The position numbers were made by a program, and so were the translations under genes. A stretch of 33,881 nucleotides of DNA from a bacterium (lineage in GTDB: Bacteria > Patescibacteriota > Gracilibacteria > Peribacterales > Peribacteraceae), in assembly GCA_027592135.1 (NCBI GenBank), contig JAQCIJ010000010.1:1-33881 (forward strand), in the 5' to 3' direction. The notes below the pieces were generated by a model. That model searched no databases. It was not told the origin of the DNA and was given only the letters and a program-made list of their open reading frames with translations. Positions 2,163 through 33,881 of this stretch are shown here, one piece after another (position 1 is the first letter of the stretch; every line of letters begins with the position of its first letter).

Positions 2163-3719
2163 TTACGAAAGAGGCGCAAAAAGAATACTCGGCTCCCCTA
2201 CTGATTTCCAGTCTTTTCCACAACTTCCCCATTTAGTGAGATCACGTTCATTATTTTTTAGAACAAATTTTGTATTCAGCATATCCTCTGCATATGGCAC
2301 ATTCAGCTGCTTACTTATGCGATAAGCAGTATCTGGCATAAAAGGAAGAAGCATCAATGAAATATGTCGTAGCCGTTCTGCAATACCGCAAAGGACATGC
2401 ATCTTCTCATCGCCCTTTAATGTCCACGGCTTTTTGTTCTCCATTTCAACATTGCCGGAAGCCGCCCATGCCACTGCTTCAGCAAGGGCTTTCGACAGTT
2501 CAAATGCATCCATATACTTTTTATATTTCATCCATGAATCTGAAACAGTCTCTAGCCATTCACCTTCACCTACAGGAACATTAATGGAACCACCCTCTTT
2601 TTTTAATAAGGTAAGCATGCGGTTGAGAAGATTCCCAATCTTATTACTAAGCACTCCGATGTATAATTCCTCAAATCTTTCCCACGAGAAGTCACCGTCG
2701 CGGCCTACAGGAATCTCGTGACTCAAATAAAATCTGATCGGGTCTGGGTTACCATTAAACTTTGCAAGTACATCATCTGGAACCACAACATTGCCCGTTG
2801 ACTTGCTCATCTTCTCTCCTTCGCTTGTCAAAAATCCATGGATCAGTAATTGATCAGGAGTTTTTATTGACGCAGCCTTAAGCATACTTGGCCAGATGAG
2901 TGCATGAAAACGTGCGATGTCTTTTCCGATAATGTGCGTCACCGTTGCGTCATCCCAAAACGTTGTATCTTCTGCATCAGTAAAATACCGAAGTCCAGAG
3001 ATATAGTTTGTCAGTGCATCACACCAAACATACATAGTCTGGTCTTCATCATCAGGAACAGGAACACCCCAACTAAGAGTTGTTTTAGGACGAGAGAACG
3101 AAACATCTTCGAGACCTTGATCGATAAGTGTCAATGTTTCGTTGGCACGGCTAGCAGGAATTATACGGTAACTCTCTCCATCCCATGTATCTGTCAGCAG
3201 ATTTTTTAGATTATCGGTATCCCGACTCATTAAGAAAAAGTAGTTCTCTTCTGTTACCTCCTCTGGAGCCTTTTTATGATTGGGACAAAGACCTGCCTCA
3301 TCCAAATCACGCTGTGTCATAAAGCGTTCACACCCACTGCAATAGAGTCCTGTGTACCTTCGCTTCTCCAGCATTCCAGCCGCCTCCAATCGCTTCCAGA
3401 GCTCTTGGACTGTTGGCCAGTGCTCGTGCTGGTCTGATGTACGAATGAAATGATCATGACTAATATTCAGACGTATGTAGAGATCTTCGAATAGTACGAC
3501 ATTGCGGTCAACCAACTCTTTCGGGCTGATACCCTCCTCTTCTGCTGCACGCTGAATCTTGGTACCGTGCTCGTCTGTACCTATCTGAAATCGAACAGTA
3601 TCGCCGCGTAAGCGCCTCCAACGAGCTACAACATCTGCAAGGACCTTCTCGAGTACATGACCCATGTGAGGAGCTGCATTCGGATAATCGATAGCCGTAG
3701 TAATGTACTGACGAGACAT
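2163..3719 (-). CDS. metG: Methionyl-tRNA synthetase
   Basis: MSRQYITTAIDYPNAAPHMGHVLEKVLAD (HIGH-like motif), CSGCERFM zinc motif, KMSKSTGN. Start placed at MSRQY rather than the 20-aa upstream extension. Confidence 0.95.
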   Translation of the reverse strand: MSRQYITTAIDYPNAAPHMGHVLEKVLADVVARWRRLRGDTVRFQIGTDEHGTKIQRAAEEEGISPKELVDRNVVLFEDLYIRLNISHDHFIRTSDQHEHWPTVQELWKRLEAAGMLEKRRYTGLYCSGCERFMTQRDLDEAGLCPNHKKAPEEVTEENYFFLMSRDTDNLKNLLTDTWDGESYRIIPASRANETLTLIDQGLEDVSFSRPKTTLSWGVPVPDDEDQTMYVWCDALTNYISGLRYFTDAEDTTFWDDATVTHIIGKDIARFHALIWPSMLKAASIKTPDQLLIHGFLTSEGEKMSKSTGNVVVPDDVLAKFNGNPDPIRFYLSHEIPVGRDGDFSWERFEELYIGVLSNKIGNLLNRMLTLLKKEGGSINVPVGEGEWLETVSDSWMKYKKYMDAFELSKALAEAVAWAASGNVEMENKKPWTLKGDEKMHVLCGIAERLRHISLMLLPFMPDTAYRISKQLNVPYAEDMLNTKFVLKNNERDLTKWGSCGKDWKSVGEPSILFAPLS

Positions 3720-3787: not shown

Positions 3788-3812
3788 TCTCTACTCTCTA
3801 CTCTCTACTCTA
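3788..3812. repeat. Heptanucleotide tandem repeat (TCTCTAC)x3 plus partial unit
   Basis: tctctac tctctac tctctac tcta. Confidence 0.9.
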
Positions 3813-3813
3813 T

Positions 3814-4179
3814 TTACGCACACAAACCAGAACCCGCCGTAGCGAGTTCTACTACTTTACAAACCCAGTTCACGATAGCGACACCAGTTACAGCGAGGAT
3901 GATTCCTACTACTGCACCAATGATAATCTTCTTCGCTTCCTCTTTTCCTTGATCATCTCCAAAGGAAGAGATCATCTTGATAGATGCCCATAAGATAGCA
4001 ATCACAGCGATTGCTCCAACAACTGGAATAACAATGACATTCGCCGTTCGTACAGCAATGTGAATAATAAATCCTTGTCCATCTCCGCAGTATGTTCCAA
4101 GCGCACTACAGTAATACCCAAAATAGGGAGAAGCATATGCCGTCTCGATAATGCCGAGGAATGTAAGAAGAGAGAGCAT
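3814..4179 (-). CDS. Small two-TM pilin-like (TrbC/VirB2-type) membrane protein
   Basis: 121 aa; N-terminal signal-like helix and two hydrophobic helices (ANVIVIPVVGAIAVIAILWASIKMI; KKIIIGAVVGIILAVTGVAIVNWVCKVV). Confidence 0.6.
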   Translation of the reverse strand: MLSLLTFLGIIETAYASPYFGYYCSALGTYCGDGQGFIIHIAVRTANVIVIPVVGAIAVIAILWASIKMISSFGDDQGKEEAKKIIIGAVVGIILAVTGVAIVNWVCKVVELATAGSGLCA

Positions 4180-4182
4180 GAT

Positions 4183-4728
4183 TTAAAATCCAAGTTGAGC
4201 AGTAGCACGAACGAGTGCGTAGGAAAGATTAATGGCAATCGCACCAGCAATGGTCCATGTGAAAGCCTTCTTTACTGTATCCAACTCGCTCTGCTGACCT
4301 CGGGAAAATACCATCTTAAACCCATAGAAAAGCATCATTAATGCGAACACTACGTTAAAGACATACAACATAGAACCAACGGCTACCTGCATAATACTAA
4401 GGTGTGGTACTTGATAATCGATCGTTCCTGCACGAGCCACTGCAAACGAAATGATCGCCTGAGAAGAAAGGGCGATAGCCCACCCGATAAGTGCAAAAAT
4501 AATTGCCTTCTTGCCTTTACCCGACTGAGTTTCATTTCCAAAGTTTGTCACAAGAAGTGCACCACCAATAACAACAAACAGCACAGAAAGTCCGGATGCA
4601 ATTTCTAGTAATGCAGCAGCTGCAATAACCGTAAACCGCGGCAGAGGGTTTGCACCAATTCCGCAATTAGAAACATAAAAACAAGGGTCTCCTATAGCGT
4701 ACGCCATTGGTATTAAAAAATTCCACAT
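4183..4728 (-). CDS. Pilin-like / T4SS-associated multi-TM membrane protein
   Basis: Start at MWNFLIPMAYAIGDP; hydrophobic pairs with the motif ALLVTNFGNETQSGKGKKAIIFALIGWAIALSSQAIISF; 3 nt from the next gene. Confidence 0.55.
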   Translation of the reverse strand: MWNFLIPMAYAIGDPCFYVSNCGIGANPLPRFTVIAAAALLEIASGLSVLFVVIGGALLVTNFGNETQSGKGKKAIIFALIGWAIALSSQAIISFAVARAGTIDYQVPHLSIMQVAVGSMLYVFNVVFALMMLFYGFKMVFSRGQQSELDTVKKAFTWTIAGAIAINLSYALVRATAQLGF

Positions 4729-4732
4729 AGAT

Positions 4733-5623
4733 TTACGTGAAGAACAAACTGTTAAGAGTGCGCAAGAAGAATCCTGCAAAGTTGACAATGATCAATCCGA
4801 TTAACGCCCACGTAATCATAGATTTTCCTGTTCCTCGCATTCCCCCATTAGAACCAGACAACATCACGAAATAACTTCCGATCAAAATCCAAAGAACAGC
4901 AAAACCAACCGAAATAGTAATAAGTAAATCTGCAGCATCGTTAAAGTAATCGATAAACGAATCTGCTCCTGGCCTTACCAGGATCGTATTTCTACTACCA
5001 AGTGGCTGAATAAGCGGTACACATGCACGATTCGAAGGGTTTGACACTGAACAAGTTCCTGGATTAGGAAAAGCACTACGCCTTGGAGGAGAACCTCCTC
5101 CTCCGCCTCCTGTGCTTACGGCACCCACTCCACCGCCTCCAAGAAGTCCGCTTCCACCAATCACTCCGCCAAATGTTCCACCACCAAATGTTCCGCCTGC
5201 ACCTGGGCTACCAATTGGTCCGCCTGCACCTGGAGACCCTGGAGACCCTGGGCTAGGATCTACAGATGAAAAAGAGAACGATATTGAAGCGAAAGAAAAG
5301 CTAAAAGAAGAAAATGATACCTGAGAAAAAGAAGCAGAACTCTGTGGTTCTTGAGAAAACGAGAATGAGCTAAATGAGCTCGGAGGAGCAATAGAACTGA
5401 ATCTCACTGTAGAAACACCTGTTGAACTAAAAGTGACAGAAGAAATCTGCACAGAAGAAAATGAGAGTGAAGGAAACGACCGTGAAGGAAAGACCACTGC
5501 AACAATGTCTCGCTCTCCTTCTGCAAAAGCTGGCACACCTGCTCCACCAAAATGAACAAATATCCCCGCAAGCGCGAGAGAGATAACCGCAATCTGTACT
5601 GTATGTTTTTGTGAAGACATCAC
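4733..5623 (-). CDS. Exported Ser/Phe-alternating, Gly-rich protein with C-terminal two-TM pilin-like domain
   Basis: N-terminal signal; FSSFSFSFASISFSFSS tract; GSPGSPGAGGPIGSPGAGG tract; C-terminus FAVLWILIGSYFVMLSGSNGGMRGTGKSMITWALIGLIIVNFAGFFL. Confidence 0.6.
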   Translation of the reverse strand: MMSSQKHTVQIAVISLALAGIFVHFGGAGVPAFAEGERDIVAVVFPSRSFPSLSFSSVQISSVTFSSTGVSTVRFSSIAPPSSFSSFSFSQEPQSSASFSQVSFSSFSFSFASISFSFSSVDPSPGSPGSPGAGGPIGSPGAGGTFGGGTFGGVIGGSGLLGGGGVGAVSTGGGGGGSPPRRSAFPNPGTCSVSNPSNRACVPLIQPLGSRNTILVRPGADSFIDYFNDAADLLITISVGFAVLWILIGSYFVMLSGSNGGMRGTGKSMITWALIGLIIVNFAGFFLRTLNSLFFT

Positions 5624-5753
5624 ATGATTATAGCAGAAATTTGCTATGTAATCGACTCTTAAAGCTGGAATTGTTAAGACTAGTTAGCAAAATTATAATA
5701 TTACAAAACATTATAGATTTTTTACAATGCCTAGTAGGATTTGTAAGTATAAA

Positions 5754-5871: not shown

Positions 5872-6630
5872 CTATAATCCGTAAAACTTCACCGTGTTCT
5901 CCGTGGTAATACGACTCACCTCCTCGAGAGATATGTCTTTGATATCAGCGATCAGCTTTGCAACCTCTACGACATATGCAGGCTCACAACGTTTCCCTCT
6001 GCATCCTTCTGGTGCCAAGTACGGTGCATCCGTCTCAATCATCATCTGCTCTAGTGGACACTCCAAAATGGTATTTCTGATCTCATCTGATTTTGGATAC
6101 GTAGCAATACCTGTAAATCCAAAGAGGTATCCTCTATCAATAAGTTCTCTACAATCCTCCCACTTCTCTGTATTACAATGTAAGACTAGTCTCTTCGGCT
6201 CAAGCTCTCTGATGATATCCAAATAATCTGCAAGAGAGTCTCGGTTATGCGTAACCACGGGAAGATCTAACTCTTTGGCAAGAGATAGCTGATCGCGAAA
6301 TGCTCTGATCTGATCCTCTTTTGGGCTGTTCATGTAATGATAATCCAAACCGATTTCACCCACTGCCACCATCTTCGGGTGCTTGGCAGCTTCTGCAATA
6401 GTCAATTGACCATTGACCATTGACCATTGACTTGCACCATGCGGATGTACTCCTATTGTACAAAATATTTGTTCATATTTAGCAGCTAGCGCAAGACACC
6501 TCTCCCCTTCTTCGAGCGTATCGGCAATAGCAATATATCGATCCACTCCAACGGCAGATGCACGTGCAAGTACCTCAGGAAGATCTGAAGCAAACTTCGG
6601 GTCCGCCAAGTGGCAGTGACTATCAATCAT
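5872..6630 (-). CDS. tatD: TatD-family deoxyribonuclease
   Basis: MIDSHCHLADPKF; VGEIGLDYHY; MMIETDAPYLAPE. Confidence 0.93.
   Translation of the reverse strand: MIDSHCHLADPKFASDLPEVLARASAVGVDRYIAIADTLEEGERCLALAAKYEQIFCTIGVHPHGASQWSMVNGQLTIAEAAKHPKMVAVGEIGLDYHYMNSPKEDQIRAFRDQLSLAKELDLPVVTHNRDSLADYLDIIRELEPKRLVLHCNTEKWEDCRELIDRGYLFGFTGIATYPKSDEIRNTILECPLEQMMIETDAPYLAPEGCRGKRCEPAYVVEVAKLIADIKDISLEEVSRITTENTVKFYGL
6405..6431. repeat. Heptanucleotide tandem repeat (ATTGACC)x~4 inside tatD
   Basis: attgacc attgacc attgacc attgac. Confidence 0.9.
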
Positions 6631-7562: not shown

Positions 7563-8633
7563 CTACTGACCAATACCAAAAAGGTTAAGTATGGCGGCAA
7601 ACCTACTACGTGCTTTAGAAACATCTCCTGCATCAAGTGTGACTGTTGCGTCTACAGGTGTGTCAGGTACCTCTGCATTCAAAGCAGCAACTGCAGCCAG
7701 AAATTCTGGAGAATCTATATTTGCATTTTCAACGCGATCAGTTCCCGCCTTGCGTACATTCTCTAATTCAGCTTGAAGATACGCTGTATCCCAAAAGGGC
7801 ATACCTGCCCCTCGTTGCATCATTAGAGAAAGGTTATCTGCTGCATACGGACCGCTTCCAAATTCTAATGTATTCGAATTTGATGTTCTTCGATCACGAT
7901 CAATTTCTCTGTCAGAGCCATCTACCCGTACAGCAGATGCAGCCGTCAATTCTAGATCCTCTGCCAGAGGTCGAAGTTCTTCCTTCTGTTTCTCTCTCGC
8001 TCTAGCCATAAGAGCTTTTTGCGCATCGTGGAATCGCTGAACTAAACAAAGAGAAGTATTTACTTCTGCAATGCCACTTTTTAAGGTCTGAATTGCGCGA
8101 ACTTCATTCGATGGATTTGCCACAAGTACCCAACCTTGTATTGAGCCATCCCCGTCATTTTCAGCAAATGCCCCTAGGGAATCAATGATTCCAGATACGT
8201 TTGCAGAATCTGCTGCTTTACCAATCTCTTCAATGCTTCCACCTTCTGCTGCAAGAAGTTTTCTCTGTAGGTTATCATCACTCAGTGGACCAGTAACAGT
8301 CTTTGAGACATCAGACAGATTCAATTCCTGATCAAGGGTTTGTAATCTACTCTTCGCTCGTTCTAGTTGTATTGTTGCACCTTCGTACAGCCCAGGTAAT
8401 TCATCAACGGAAACTTCTGTCATTTCACCTGTAGGGTCCTCAAATAACACTTTTTCACCAGCAAGAATATTCTCGTATGAAGTAAGTGTGGCTTTTCGAT
8501 ACAGTGGATCATTAAGCCTGTTGTTTACAGCAGCTCCCTGAAGTGCCCAGTTCTTTACAACAGTATTGCCATCTGCAAGATAGGAGGCAATATCTGGATG
8601 TAGATCTGGTGTGTTTAATTGTTTTTCCGACAT
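7563..8633 (-). CDS. Hypothetical protein
   Basis: Long ORF (MSEKQLNTPDLHPDIASYLADG...), no family recognised. Confidence 0.6.
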   Translation of the reverse strand: MSEKQLNTPDLHPDIASYLADGNTVVKNWALQGAAVNNRLNDPLYRKATLTSYENILAGEKVLFEDPTGEMTEVSVDELPGLYEGATIQLERAKSRLQTLDQELNLSDVSKTVTGPLSDDNLQRKLLAAEGGSIEEIGKAADSANVSGIIDSLGAFAENDGDGSIQGWVLVANPSNEVRAIQTLKSGIAEVNTSLCLVQRFHDAQKALMARAREKQKEELRPLAEDLELTAASAVRVDGSDREIDRDRRTSNSNTLEFGSGPYAADNLSLMMQRGAGMPFWDTAYLQAELENVRKAGTDRVENANIDSPEFLAAVAALNAEVPDTPVDATVTLDAGDVSKARSRFAAILNLFGIGQ

Positions 8634-8726
8634 ATGAAATTGGGAAATGTAACAATATTGTACCATATTTATAGTATTTATACAAATAACCTTTTATGGC
8701 GTATAGTACCGTACGAGGCAATCAAA

Positions 8727-9289: not shown

Positions 9290-10414
9290 ATGAAAGTAGC
9301 AATTGTCCATGAACTCCTCACCATGCGAGGTGGTGCCGAACGGGTGCTACGGATCCTTGCTGAGATGTATCCAGAGGCTCCTATTTACACTTTGCTCTAC
9401 AACGAGAAGAAGCTGGGAGAGTGGTTTCCACGAGAAAGAGTACGAAAACCGAAGCTCCCTAACTACTATCTACTAATCCCCAGCCCCTACCGTTTCAATC
9501 ATCATCTCTACCTCAAACACTTCCCAAAAATGGTCGAGTCGATGGATTTCTCAGAATATGATCTCGTGATCTCAACCTCTTCCGCGTTCGCGCACGGCAT
9601 TATTACCAATGGCAAACCAAAACATCTTTCGTATGTGCATGCTCCTGCCAGATACCTCTGGGATAGAACCCACGATGTCACCGAGAAAGCATCAAAAGGA
9701 ATACTTGGGTCTCTTAAGAAGAAATACCTCCAACGAACATTCCATCCCTTACGTACTTGGGATGCAGAAGCTTCGGCACGAGCTGACAAAATTATTGCAG
9801 CATCCAATGATGTAAAGCGGCGTATAGAGTTGTATTGGAGAAAACCCAGCGACGTGATCTATCCACCAATCGATGACTTCTGGATGAGAGAACGTGATGA
9901 AAAAAGAATGAAGAGTGAAGAGAGGTACTTCTTGATTGTCTCAACACTCGTTTCCTATAAAAATATTGAACTTGCTATTGAAGCGTGTAAGACACTCAAC
10001 CTCCCTCTGAAGATTGTTGGTGAAGGTCCATACAAAAAGCAACTGCAACGCATCACGCATCACGCATCACGCATCACCTTCTTAGGATATCAACCAAAGA
10101 AACAGCTCAAAGAACTGTATGCAGATGCAACTGCAGTGATCTTTCCCGGTAAAGAAGACTTCGGTCTTGTGCCACTCGAAGCTGCTGCTTGCGGCACTCC
10201 TGTCATCGCCTACCGAGGAGGTGGAGCACTCGAAACGATTATCGAAGGCAAGACGGGAACATTTTTTACAGAGCAAACCACGCAATCATTAATTGATACT
10301 CTGGAAAAGTTTGATCAAAATTTGTATTCAGAGAATGACTGTAAAGCAAGAGCAAAGGAGTTCTCTCAGGAGAGGTTTGAAAAGCAGATTCGGGAGGTAG
10401 TTGCTGGTCTGTAG
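9290..10414 (+). CDS. Glycosyltransferase family 4 protein
   Basis: MKVAIVHELLTMRGGAERVL; LIVSTLVSYKNIELAIEA; FPGKEDFGLVPLEAAACGTPVIAY. Confidence 0.9.
   Translation: MKVAIVHELLTMRGGAERVLRILAEMYPEAPIYTLLYNEKKLGEWFPRERVRKPKLPNYYLLIPSPYRFNHHLYLKHFPKMVESMDFSEYDLVISTSSAFAHGIITNGKPKHLSYVHAPARYLWDRTHDVTEKASKGILGSLKKKYLQRTFHPLRTWDAEASARADKIIAASNDVKRRIELYWRKPSDVIYPPIDDFWMRERDEKRMKSEERYFLIVSTLVSYKNIELAIEACKTLNLPLKIVGEGPYKKQLQRITHHASRITFLGYQPKKQLKELYADATAVIFPGKEDFGLVPLEAAACGTPVIAYRGGGALETIIEGKTGTFFTEQTTQSLIDTLEKFDQNLYSENDCKARAKEFSQERFEKQIREVVAGL
10049..10076. repeat. Heptanucleotide tandem repeat (CGCATCA)x4 inside the glycosyltransferase gene
   Basis: Four perfect cgcatca units, encoding RITHHASRIT. 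Confidence 0.93.
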
Positions 10415-12874: not shown

Positions 12875-13297
12875 ATGGCAAAAAAAGTTACCAAAGTAAT
12901 AAAGGCTCAAGCACGTGGAGGACAGGCAAACCCTGCGCCGCCACTCGGTCCTGTTCTCGGACAGGCTGGTGTTGATATTAATGCCTTCTGCACGCAGTTC
13001 AACGAGCGTACAGCAGACAAGCAAGGACAACTTATTCCTATTGTCATTAAAGTATACGAAGATCGAAGTTTTGTATTTGAGCTTAAGCAGCCACCAGCAG
13101 CTTCGATGATTATCGAAAAAGCAAAACTAAAGAAAGGAAGTGGAGAACCTAACAAAAATAAGGTTGGAAAACTTACACGATCTCAACTCAAAGAAATCGC
13201 TGAAGCAAAGATGCCAGACCTTAACGCAATCGACATTGAGGGTGCTATGGAGATTATTGCAGGGACTGCAAGAAGCATGGGTGTAACCATTGAATAA
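12875..13297 (+). CDS. rplK: 50S ribosomal protein L11
   Basis: [36 protein letters not shown]. Confidence 0.97.
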
Positions 13298-13394
13298 TTT
13301 GTACTGCAGCATCTCTTGCAAAAAGTGCAATATCTTTAATGTGCATGTTTTCAGTTATAAACGTAACCTATATGCACCTTTCCTTACTTTAATT

Positions 13395-14030
13395 ATGGTT
13401 GAAAACCCTCTCTCAACAATTTTTGGATTCATTGGATCCTTTTATGGTCTTGTACTTCCACTCCTGACCATCTTCTTTCTAACAGTACTATTCCTTGCAA
13501 GCTTAAGCGTTCCAGGATCAAAACCTCGTCGCGTTGGAGATGCAATCTACTGCTATCTTATGCACGGAGTATCTGTTCTACTGATGACCGTCGGTGCATT
13601 GCCAACTGTCTTCTCTGTCTTTGCAGGCGTTGCCTATACAGGCCGAACCTACATAGCTCTACTGTTGGTATTTGCCTGCGGAGGACTCCTCTTCCTTGTG
13701 CAAGATCAAGCAACACAATCTTTGGATAGTGCATCCAAAGCAGTGACAGAGGCGATTTACTTTACGACAATCAAGATCATTGGAAACGTGATTGCTCTTC
13801 TTTCTGGAGTATCCATCTTCCTGAGTATCGTGCTTGCCTCCTTTCAGCCTGGATGGTGGGTAACCCCATTTGTTCTCCTTCTCTACGGAATGCTCCTTAG
13901 CTGGTGCACCAAAGGAAACCATGACTGGGAACTCATGAAGGCTCTCCAAGTACAATCTCCTGCTCCTGCAAGAGCGAGTACCCCAAAACTAAAGGCAAAG
14001 AAGCGTCCTGTGCGCAAAAACCGTAAATAA
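13395..14030 (+). CDS. Multi-TM membrane protein with basic C-terminus
   Basis: MVENPLSTIFGFIGSFYGLVLPLLTIFFLTVLFLAS...; C-terminus KLKAKKRPVRKNRK. Confidence 0.6.
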   Translation: MVENPLSTIFGFIGSFYGLVLPLLTIFFLTVLFLASLSVPGSKPRRVGDAIYCYLMHGVSVLLMTVGALPTVFSVFAGVAYTGRTYIALLLVFACGGLLFLVQDQATQSLDSASKAVTEAIYFTTIKIIGNVIALLSGVSIFLSIVLASFQPGWWVTPFVLLLYGMLLSWCTKGNHDWELMKALQVQSPAPARASTPKLKAKKRPVRKNRK

Positions 14031-20475: not shown

Positions 20476-21069
20476 ATGCCAATAGATGCCGTCAAAATAC
20501 CGCAGAACGTGTACGTAGAAGACAGAATTATCGGTCCCGTTACTCTGCGTCAAATTATGATCATAATGATCTCCACAGGTATCAGCTACGCTATCTGGGC
20601 AGCAATGAAAGCGAGTGGACCTACCTCTAGTATACAGACAGCTATTGCATGGATGCCAGCAGGTATCGGAACGATCTTTTCTTTTGTGAAAATTAATGGA
20701 CTTTCACTACTACGCATTATGCTTCTGTTATTTGAGAAACTCGATAAGCCCTCAAGACGTATATGGATGCCAAGACAAGGGATCTATATTAATATAGTAA
20801 CAAAGCCAAAAGAGAAAAGCTCGAATCCTGACATTGAGAAAAAAACTCAGCAGAAAGGTGAAGCACAAATAGAAGAACTCAGTAAACTTCTCGATCAAGG
20901 TCCTCATGAGCAAGAGGTTACAACAAAACAAAAGCCAGTGAATCCCAGTCGTATCCAAGTGGAAAAGCGAGAGAAACCTGTTGATGACATTGCTCCACCC
21001 AAAAAAAATACAGGTTCTTTCGGTAGTGGTTTGATGCGCGATATTACTCCTCCACCTTCTCATGCCTAA
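20476..21069 (+). CDS. PrgI-family protein
   Basis: IPQNVYVEDRIIGPVTLRQIMIIMISTGISYAIW...; charged C-terminal extension. Confidence 0.75.
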   Translation: MPIDAVKIPQNVYVEDRIIGPVTLRQIMIIMISTGISYAIWAAMKASGPTSSIQTAIAWMPAGIGTIFSFVKINGLSLLRIMLLLFEKLDKPSRRIWMPRQGIYINIVTKPKEKSSNPDIEKKTQQKGEAQIEELSKLLDQGPHEQEVTTKQKPVNPSRIQVEKREKPVDDIAPPKKNTGSFGSGLMRDITPPPSHA

Positions 21070-21766
21070 AAAAGATAATAATCTTGTCCGCAGGCGTACT
21101 CGAAATAAGAAAATAGCGACACAACGCTTTGTTCCTATCTCTGAAATTCGCAATGACACAGTGCTCCTTAAAAAAGGAGGACTGAGAGCAGTACTCGAAG
21201 TAGGGACTCTCAATTTTAACCTGAAGAGTGAAACAGAGCAGCAAGGTATTATCTCTGGATACGAATCGTTTATTAATACACTCACATTCCCGCTACAAAT
21301 TGTTATTCGATCAACAAAAGTAAATATCGACCCCTACATCGAACAAATTCGACAAAAAGCTATCATTCAAGAAAAAGACCTTCTACGAGAACAAACAGAG
21401 TCGTATGCGATTTTCGTAGAAAAGATTGTAGAAGTAGCAGATATTATGCAAAAACGATTCCTCGTCGTTGTACCTCTTGATGACACAGAAGAGAAGAAAT
21501 CCCCTCTTTCACAATTCTTCTCATGGATTGGAATTGATGATTCAAAATCAAAAATTACCTATCACCGTAAATACTTCAACGAAAAATCAATAAAGCTAAA
21601 AGATCGCGTAAACCTCGTGGATTCAGGATTGCGCAACATCGGTCTCTCCACGCGTCGCCTAACCACTATGGAGCTTATAGAAATGTATTACGAGATCTAC
21701 AACCCCACAACCAGCCAAGAGCAAAAACTGCCAAAAGACCTAAATACATCACCAGTGCAAATTTAG
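21062..21766 (+). CDS. TraC/VirB4 N-terminal-like protein without ATPase domain
   Basis: FVPISEIRNDTVLLKKGGLRAVLEVGTLNFNLKSETEQQGIISGYESFINTLTFPLQIVIRS...; overlaps prgI by 8 nt; no Walker motif. Confidence 0.65.
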   Translation: MPKKDNNLVRRRTRNKKIATQRFVPISEIRNDTVLLKKGGLRAVLEVGTLNFNLKSETEQQGIISGYESFINTLTFPLQIVIRSTKVNIDPYIEQIRQKAIIQEKDLLREQTESYAIFVEKIVEVADIMQKRFLVVVPLDDTEEKKSPLSQFFSWIGIDDSKSKITYHRKYFNEKSIKLKDRVNLVDSGLRNIGLSTRRLTTMELIEMYYEIYNPTTSQEQKLPKDLNTSPVQI

Positions 21767-25199: not shown

Positions 25200-26081
25200 A
25201 TGCCTGACATAGCATTTACCATACTATCGGCGATCTGTGCGCTCTTTATAGTAATAGCCCTCTTCTCTGATCCATCAAGCGATGATCAATTAGGACTCCC
25301 TGCCATAGGAACTCTTATTATGATACCAATCATTGCATTAATCATTGCAGGTATTGCATTTGCTCTACCGTTAATTTTAAGTGCCCTCGGCATTTTGACC
25401 CTCGTACTTATCGGTCTAGCTCTCCTCTTCCTTCTATGGAGGATAGTAACAAGCAATGAATTTGGTAGTCTTATAAAAAAGATCTTCCCTAACATACTGA
25501 AATTCCTCAAAGCAATCCCGAAAGTACTCGCTAATATATTCAAGCCAATCTGGAAATCCATCAAAGCACTATCCAAAGCATTGTGGAAGATCCTCAAGAG
25601 TCCATTAAAAGCACTGCGAGCCTTGCTAAAAACTCTCTCTAATCTTCCTGGGTTCTTAGGAAGAATATTTAAGGGGATAGGCAATATCTTCGGCGCACTA
25701 TTCGATGCAGTGCGAGCAGTGTTCAATGGTATCTTTGGATTGATCAAAGATGTCCTATCGTTTATCTACAACATGCTTTGGGATGCTGCCCCTTGGATGC
25801 GACCTATTCTTAAGTTCCTCCTATGGTTCCTCCTGATTCCCCTACTCCTCTTTCGTAGACGCAAGGACGATGATGAAAAAGAAGATGGTAAAGAGAAGAA
25901 GAGAAAAATCCGAAAGAGTCGTGGACCCTTCTTTATCAAAGGATCCAAAAAATCTAAGAAAGAGTATGTACCTGTTGCTCTTGTAAAACAGGTTCCTACT
26001 GTTATTCAGGGAGCCTCCAAAGATCTCCTTCATGTCCTCAGTAGTACACACAAACGCATCCGAAATATCGAACAGAGGTAG
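25200..26081 (+). CDS. Membrane protein with long amphipathic Lys/Trp/Phe helical repeats
   Basis: N-terminal TM helices, then FLKAIPKVLANIFKPIWKSIKALSKALWKILKSPLKALRALLKTL..., basic C-terminus. Confidence 0.6.
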   Translation: MPDIAFTILSAICALFIVIALFSDPSSDDQLGLPAIGTLIMIPIIALIIAGIAFALPLILSALGILTLVLIGLALLFLLWRIVTSNEFGSLIKKIFPNILKFLKAIPKVLANIFKPIWKSIKALSKALWKILKSPLKALRALLKTLSNLPGFLGRIFKGIGNIFGALFDAVRAVFNGIFGLIKDVLSFIYNMLWDAAPWMRPILKFLLWFLLIPLLLFRRRKDDDEKEDGKEKKRKIRKSRGPFFIKGSKKSKKEYVPVALVKQVPTVIQGASKDLLHVLSSTHKRIRNIEQR

Positions 26082-30613: not shown

Positions 30614-31186
30614 CTATTGCATCAATGCTCGCACATTCTCTATAAACATCTTGTGAACAGAATGTGATACGCACAACTCAGGATGAAACGTCGCAGCGAG
30701 GATATTCCCCTTCTGAACCAGAACGGGATGGTCCTCATGCTGTGCAAGAACCCCAACCCCATCCCCAACTCTTGTAATAATAGGAGCACGAATACATACC
30801 GCTTCCATAGATCCGATTCCTTCAACGTCTATCTGTGCAGAAAAGCTTTGCAATTGTGACCCATATGCATTGCGTTCAACGGTGATATCTATCAACTTCA
30901 AGTGGGAATCAGAAAGTAAAATTGCTCCGGCACACGTACCAAATATAGGCATTCCGGATTGAACTCTATTCATTATCTCTTGATCAAGTCCAGATTCTTT
31001 CAATAACTTCATCATCACCGTGCTCTCTCCCCCCGGAAGAACAAGGGCATCGCAACTCTCAAGGTCCTTCGCACTTCGCACTTCGATACTTCGCACGTTC
31101 AATGCTGTGAGCATTGCTTTGTGTTCTGCAAAGTCACCTTGTAGAGCTAAAACTCCTACGGTGATTGGTGATTGGTAATTGGTCAT
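30614..31186 (-). CDS. pdxT: Pyridoxal 5'-phosphate synthase glutaminase subunit
   Basis: ITVGVLALQGDFAEHKAML; LPGGESTVMMKLL; GTCAGAILL; start at MTNYQSPITVG. Confidence 0.94.
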   Translation of the reverse strand: MTNYQSPITVGVLALQGDFAEHKAMLTALNVRSIEVRSAKDLESCDALVLPGGESTVMMKLLKESGLDQEIMNRVQSGMPIFGTCAGAILLSDSHLKLIDITVERNAYGSQLQSFSAQIDVEGIGSMEAVCIRAPIITRVGDGVGVLAQHEDHPVLVQKGNILAATFHPELCVSHSVHKMFIENVRALMQ

Positions 31187-31187
31187 T
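31160..31187. repeat. Degenerate heptanucleotide array (GGTNATT)x4 spanning the pdxT start codon
   Basis: ggtgatt ggtgatt ggtaatt ggtcatt; the pdxT ATG lies in the last unit. Confidence 0.8.
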
Positions 31188-33856: not shown

Positions 33857-33881
33857 CCCTACCCCCTACCCCCTATCCCCA

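Follow-up and report, generated by a model that had tools for sequence, protein, structure and literature searches.

A VirB2-like pilin array beside metG in a bacterium of the Candidatus Peribacter lineage, with a Ser/Phe repeat ectodomain on its first pilin

A row of pilin-like genes raises the question of which machine it serves, and the locus described herein raises a second one, namely what a long Ser/Phe-rich tract might contribute at the front of a pilin. The window (the whole stretch of DNA analysed, 33,881 nucleotides) is contig C18 of a 1.12-Mb genome that is 98% complete. The source bacterium belongs to the Candidatus Peribacter lineage of Patescibacteria (CPR) and is very small and probably host-dependent. 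Herein, we propose that pil1, pil2 and pil3 form a VirB2-like pilin array and that pil1 would be exported with the tract as a surface contact module, a reading to which we assign a probability of roughly 50%.

The array and its setting

The first-pass annotation described three consecutive pilin-like genes on the minus strand in one operon, and this arrangement was found as claimed. The genes pil1, pil2 and pil3 are adjacent, with gaps of 4 and 3 nt, and all of them match T4SS_pilin (PF18895). The features of the locus and of the related genes in the window are as follows.

2163-3719, minus strand: metG (methionyl-tRNA synthetase, named from sequence), the conserved downstream neighbour
3814-4179, minus strand: pil3, 121 aa; best match T4SS_pilin; conserved Cys residues
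4183-4728, minus strand: pil2, 181 aa; two T4SS_pilin-like stretches; two conserved Cys near the N-terminus
4733-5620, minus strand: pil1, 295 aa from the ATG at 5620; PF18895 E 3.4e-5; orthologues present
4736-5023, minus strand: conserved C-terminal domain of pil1, residues 200-295; VirB2-like two-helix hairpin, helices at about 222-257 and 262-294
5090-5251, minus strand: Gly-rich stretch of pil1, residues 124-177; GSPGSPGAGG and GGTFGGGTFGG; retained in orthologues
5261-5491, minus strand: Ser/Phe tract of pil1, residues 44-120; hydrophobic period of 5 and 2.5 residues; conserved in the genus
5522-5620, minus strand: probable Sec signal peptide of pil1, residues 1-33, ending in GVPAFA before EGE; judged by eye, with an AlphaFold2 helix at residues 3-25
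5627-5632, minus strand: -10 element TATAAT preceded by TGC, as in an extended -10; it ends exactly 6 nt upstream of the pil1 start codon
15904-16254, plus strand: further single pilin-like gene, 116 aa; PF18895 E 3.3e-5, 24.3 bits, just below cut-off
20476-21069, plus strand: PrgI (VirB3-like), a separate T4SS part; PF12666 E 1.5e-7
21062-21766, plus strand: TrsD/TraC-like, a separate T4SS part; TrsD E 1.7e-8, below cut-off

Several lines of evidence place these proteins among the pilins. First, at the curated Pfam cut-off of 26.6 bits for PF18895, pil2 (E 3e-6, 27.6 bits) and pil3 (E 3.8e-8, 33.7 bits) are members and pil1 is borderline, scoring just under the cut-off as a protein (24.3 bits) and 28.0 bits as a locus in the genome search, with its orthologues in G002 and G014 above it at 27.1 bits. 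In addition, pil3 matched TrbC/VirB2 (PF04956) below cut-off (E 0.002), and the profile match between pil1 and pil3 was weak (probability 63%). Since two PF18895 stretches are present in pil2, this protein probably forms two hairpins with four membrane helices. Second, the parts of pil1 follow one another as signal peptide, Ser/Phe tract, Gly-rich stretch, two-Cys neck and C-terminal helical hairpin. Both the signal peptide and the Gly-rich repeats after the tract had been noted in the first-pass annotation and are present, the former as judged by eye. The neck residues, Cys190 and Cys200, are invariant across four aligned full orthologues, and a GTG at 5623 provides a longer start option. Third, AlphaFold2 modelling of full-length pil1 with a four-sequence alignment (pLDDT 39.6) returned the signal-peptide helix and two helices at 222-257 and 262-294, and the C-terminal part modelled alone reached a pLDDT of 60; the two long helices of a pilin hairpin are thus present in the model with moderate confidence. 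The fold search of the low-confidence C-terminal model (pLDDT 60) against the PDB gave nothing below E 1.8, with no pilin among the fold matches shown, and no solved VirB2/TraA pilin appeared among the PDB sequence matches, which were based on shallow alignments. The VirB2-like C-terminus had been singled out as a point on which the annotation might fail, and this challenge failed. Arg262 and Lys266 lie in the loop between the helices, which under the positive-inside rule fits a loop in the cytoplasm, with both ends outside.

The position of the operon is also conserved. The array is preceded by tRNA-Gly and tatD and followed by metG, and nearly all metG-linked loci of the family that were examined keep the same-strand order pil1-pil2-pil3-metG. 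A single-protein search of a public genome collection recovered the operon at three loci, in two Candidatus Peribacter MAGs and one Peregrinibacteria MAG. As a kind of array, the three-pilin operon is already known; with its constant position next to metG, it provides a fixed genomic marker for the array across the family. Upstream of pil1, 25 of the 53 loci carry a TATA-type box 1-10 nt before an in-frame ATG, usually at 6 nt, compared with a background of 1.6% of the ATGs in those loci. From the spacing between TATAAT and ATG, a leaderless pil1 transcript is predicted, conserved in many genomes of the family.

Other components of a type IV secretion system are present in the genome, in which 14 T4SS_pilin matches and one VirB4-type ATPase match were found, the latter on contig C23 (G000:C23), elsewhere from the array. 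The features by which a T4SS pilin array is recognised in Patescibacteria, at least two adjacent divergent pilins together with a VirB4-type ATPase, are both observed. According to a recent report, this same set of PrgI, TrsD and VirB4-type genes characterizes the Patescibacteria T4SS, together with arrays of 2-11 divergent VirB2-like pilin genes, and pilin genes distant from virB4 are common (PMC12102498). The machine is described as essential in the one strain tested (PMC11665869, PMC12857230), and a six-pilin array as essential in Ca. Southlakia epibionticum (reviewed in PMC12857230). The role of the T4SS in Saccharibacteria is stated as unknown (PMC11665869).

Additional features were observed elsewhere in the window. 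Short tandem arrays of 7-bp repeats lie at 3788-3811, 6405-6431, 10048-10077, 31067-31096, 31160-31187 and 33857-33880. At least two fall within genes, namely tatD and that of a glycosyltransferase, and the arrays recall the heptamer repeats of cyanobacteria. The gene at 436-1722 encodes a probable S-layer or surface protein that combines an SLH domain with a TSP3-type repeat, and the proteins at 7563-8666, 25200-26081 and 13290-14030 have no Pfam match at E 0.01.

Period, conservation and distribution of the Ser/Phe tract

The 81-residue stretch analysed contains 34 Ser and 15 Phe, and among 1,828 six-frame segments from the window and the sampled loci, at least 57% Ser plus Phe over 70 residues was found only in pil1 of this genus. 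Because the Ser codons are mixed, the tract in the window is not a simple DNA repeat. The first-pass annotation emphasized an alternation of Ser and aromatic residues, which is real at residues 102-119 (SFSSFSFSFASISFSFSS); this stretch covers only part of the tract, however, and the underlying unit is a pentapeptide period, not plain alternation. Hydrophobic residues 5 apart were observed 17 times, compared with 8.8 expected by shuffling (z 4.0), whereas a spacing of 2 was not significant (12 compared with 9.1) and directly neighbouring hydrophobic residues were avoided (3 compared with 9.2). The Fourier peak lies at 2.45 residues (P 0.002), and the autocorrelation and Fourier tests rule out plain period-2 alternation as the basic unit. 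Register shifts occur inside the tract. Of the five tract-bearing genomes, G001 has its Fourier peak at 4.95 residues and the other four (the window, G002, G003 and G014) have theirs at 2.45-2.5 (each P at most 0.02 against shuffles), and an excess of distance-5 spacing was found in four of the five, being strongest in G001 and not significant in G003. The alternating pattern itself is not conserved: G001 lacks it, and G014 has almost none. The G001 tract is encoded by 13.8 tandem copies of a 15-bp unit that specify FSSQQ or FSSQG in a nearly perfect array, which suggests that the tract expands through duplication of a pentapeptide and then diverges. The five-residue period with a hydrophobic centre by which pentapeptide repeats are recognised is present in the tract and speaks for a repeat or solenoid-like module no less than for amyloid.

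The tract also appears to be maintained as protein. Between the window and the congener G003, the tract shows 77% protein identity and 69% DNA identity (dN 0.22, dS 1.45, dN/dS 0.15), and between the window and G002, 68% and 61% (dN/dS 0.11); dS in the tract is saturated (>1), and these ratios are rough. The corresponding values for the C-terminal domain in the same two congeners are 0.12 and 0.17. Because protein identity exceeds DNA identity, the tract looks selected within the genus, where the ratios, rough as they are at dS >1, disfavour neutral filler. The concern that the tract might be poorly conserved filler is thus not upheld within the genus but does apply outside the clade, where the tract is absent and a short spacer stands in its place. 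In the single MAG representing G003, an in-frame TAG lies inside the tract (L008, 1153-1155), for which assembly error, polymorphism or genuine loss could each account, and a Pro/Ala run takes the place of some of the Gly stretch.

The C-terminal domain of pil1 was found in 70 of 74 family genomes (E at most 1e-8), a count that may include some other pilins. In most relatives outside the tract clade, a short spacer alone separates the signal peptide from the domain. The tract clade consists of this genus and one sister genus, in which about 60-115 Ser/Phe-rich residues are followed by a Gly-rich stretch. A 46-genome tree built on the pil1 domain, pil2 and pil3 groups G014 with all five members of the genus in a single clade (support 1.0). 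Of these, the window, G001, G002, G003 and G014 show the tract, and in the remaining member, G004, the contig end cuts the gene before the tract. Since the tract-bearing genomes form one clade, a single gain followed by retention is the simplest account. A tract search of 353 genomes of the class gave good matches only in the source genome, G002 and G014, and in G003 with its TAG; the remaining matches were weak and mostly interrupted, and the FSSQQ version of G001 is too diverged for detection by this search.

Other ectodomains were observed in front of a pil1-type C-terminal domain. L074 (G006:C43) and L075 (G077:C51) carry roughly 500-600 aa, L026 (G009:C26) carries Cys-rich repeats, and L082 (G083:C27) carries a Pro-rich PGPAATITSTPPGPAPTT repeat. 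The hairpin would seem to act as a generic socket at the surface.

It is possible, though rather unlikely, that the tract is an unstructured low-complexity spacer for which length, polarity and flexibility suffice, the repeats arising from slippage and composition drift. In keeping with such a spacer, AlphaFold2 (four-sequence alignment) leaves the tract unstructured at a pLDDT of about 24-33 with no secondary structure, tract length and sequence vary strongly toward G001 and G014, the G001 array is fresh, the Gly stretch is partly replaced in G003, and other lineages manage with a short spacer. However, a spacer of this kind is hard to reconcile with amino acid identity above nucleotide identity at dN/dS 0.11-0.15 in the genus, with the five-residue excess in four of the five genomes and a non-random period in all five, and with nearly one Phe per six residues, a frequency that is unusual for a disordered polar spacer.

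Proposed role of the array

The pilin-array reading combines the observed gene order, family matches, distribution, periodicity and conservation with export, topology, pilus assembly and contact function, all four of which we infer. The array would serve the reduced type IV secretion-like machine of the source bacterium. Upon export by Sec, the signal peptide of pil1 would be removed, and the hairpin would stay in the membrane or enter a pilus, with the Arg/Lys loop inside and both ends outside. Given this topology, the new N-terminus would face outside, its pentapeptide-type Ser/Phe repeat carried by a flexible Gly-rich arm that has the two-Cys neck. There, the tract might act as a surface-displayed contact module, in either host-cell adhesion or bundling between subunits. 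Thus, pil1 is probably an exported pilin-like subunit with a lineage-specific repeat module for contact on the cell or pilus surface, and surface display with contact function is, we infer, the likeliest use.

Whether such proteins are pilus subunits at all may be asked. They might instead be membrane anchors or parts of an inner-membrane channel, with pil1 a surface protein on a borrowed pilin-like hairpin, which we consider doubtful. The ectodomains of L074, L075 and L026 would be hard to pack in a helical pilus, and the array lies away from virB4; pilins away from virB4 are nevertheless common in Patescibacteria (PMC12102498), and the metG-linked orthologues are nearly all small and pilin-sized in a fixed three-gene array. 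A more specific version of the pilin-array reading, in which a folded Ser/Phe pentapeptide-type repeat (a solenoid or a reversible cross-beta structure) on the outside of a VirB2-like pilus makes a sticky host-contact pilus and the pil1 anchor is a general socket for lineage-specific ectodomains, is offered as speculation and is unlikely. A cross-beta (amyloid-like) fibre linking cells or subunits, in line with the suggestion of the first-pass annotation, is very improbable, since the overall period is 5/2.5 rather than 2 and the G001 orthologue, with 0 Ser-hydrophobic-Ser triplets, indicates that alternation is not the conserved feature, despite the strictly alternating stretch at 102-119, the lack of charged residues or prolines in it and a Ser/Phe/Gln/Gly composition that resembles prion-like domains.

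Comparison with known systems

The conjugative pilins TraA and VirB2 of F and T pili share with pil1 a signal peptide, two long hydrophobic helices and basic residues in the loop. They differ in having no long N-terminal repeat ectodomain and gave no direct sequence match to pil1.

Pentapeptide-repeat proteins of the QnrB type likewise show a five-residue period with a Phe/Leu centre, but the tract has no Asp/Asn before the centre and matches no Pfam pentapeptide family above threshold. The A(D/N)LXX consensus is absent, and the nearest scores were below the Pfam threshold (PF13599, E 0.25, for the window; PF25296, E 0.0014, 18.9 bits against a cut-off of 45, for G001). The G001 tract matched QnrB1 weakly (E 0.19) and NF033900 of NCBIfam below threshold (E 8.3e-6).

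Among solved-structure sequences, the FSSQQ tract of G001 matched the repeat region of DotG/IcmE (E 9.3e-19), and the NF033900 and PF25296 scores below threshold agree with the resemblances found for G001. Residue order matters for this match, because the shuffled G001 residues matched nothing at all. The DotG/IcmE region likewise has a hydrophobic residue at every fifth position, in GFS(A/S) units. DotG is a VirB10-type core protein without a pilin hairpin, and the tract in the window itself gave no such match. The likeness probably reflects a shared five-residue repeat logic that is convergent. We do not read it as membership in the DotG or pentapeptide families. In agreement with the first-pass annotation, no described family matches the Ser/Phe and Gly ectodomain, and a literature search on N-terminal extensions of VirB2 and pentapeptide repeats of DotG found nothing useful.

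A surface protein with PTD repeats in Gracilibacterium BD1-5, another CPR bacterium, resembles pil1 in that short repeats are kept as protein while the codons vary, and its authors proposed a role in adhesion (PMC6851277). That protein differs in its tripeptide unit and in that no pilin domain is reported (PMC6851277).

The closest systems are the VirB2-like pilin arrays of Patescibacteria (Quinonero-Coronel et al. 2025, PMC12102498; PMC12857230). They are likewise tandem, divergent, chromosomal genes of the PF18895 type, with PrgI, TrsD and VirB4-type genes in the genome and no need for closeness to virB4; the main text of these papers describes neither a long Ser/Phe repeat ectodomain on an array pilin nor a conserved array adjacent to metG. 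Pilin arrays themselves are already known (PMC12102498), and what is new here is the Ser/Phe repeat ectodomain of pil1 in one small lineage. A lineage with a long repeat tail on its first pilin, apparently under selection, would reveal which part of the array faces outward and can change, and the repeat-tailed pilin offers a way to test how these bacteria make contact with their hosts.
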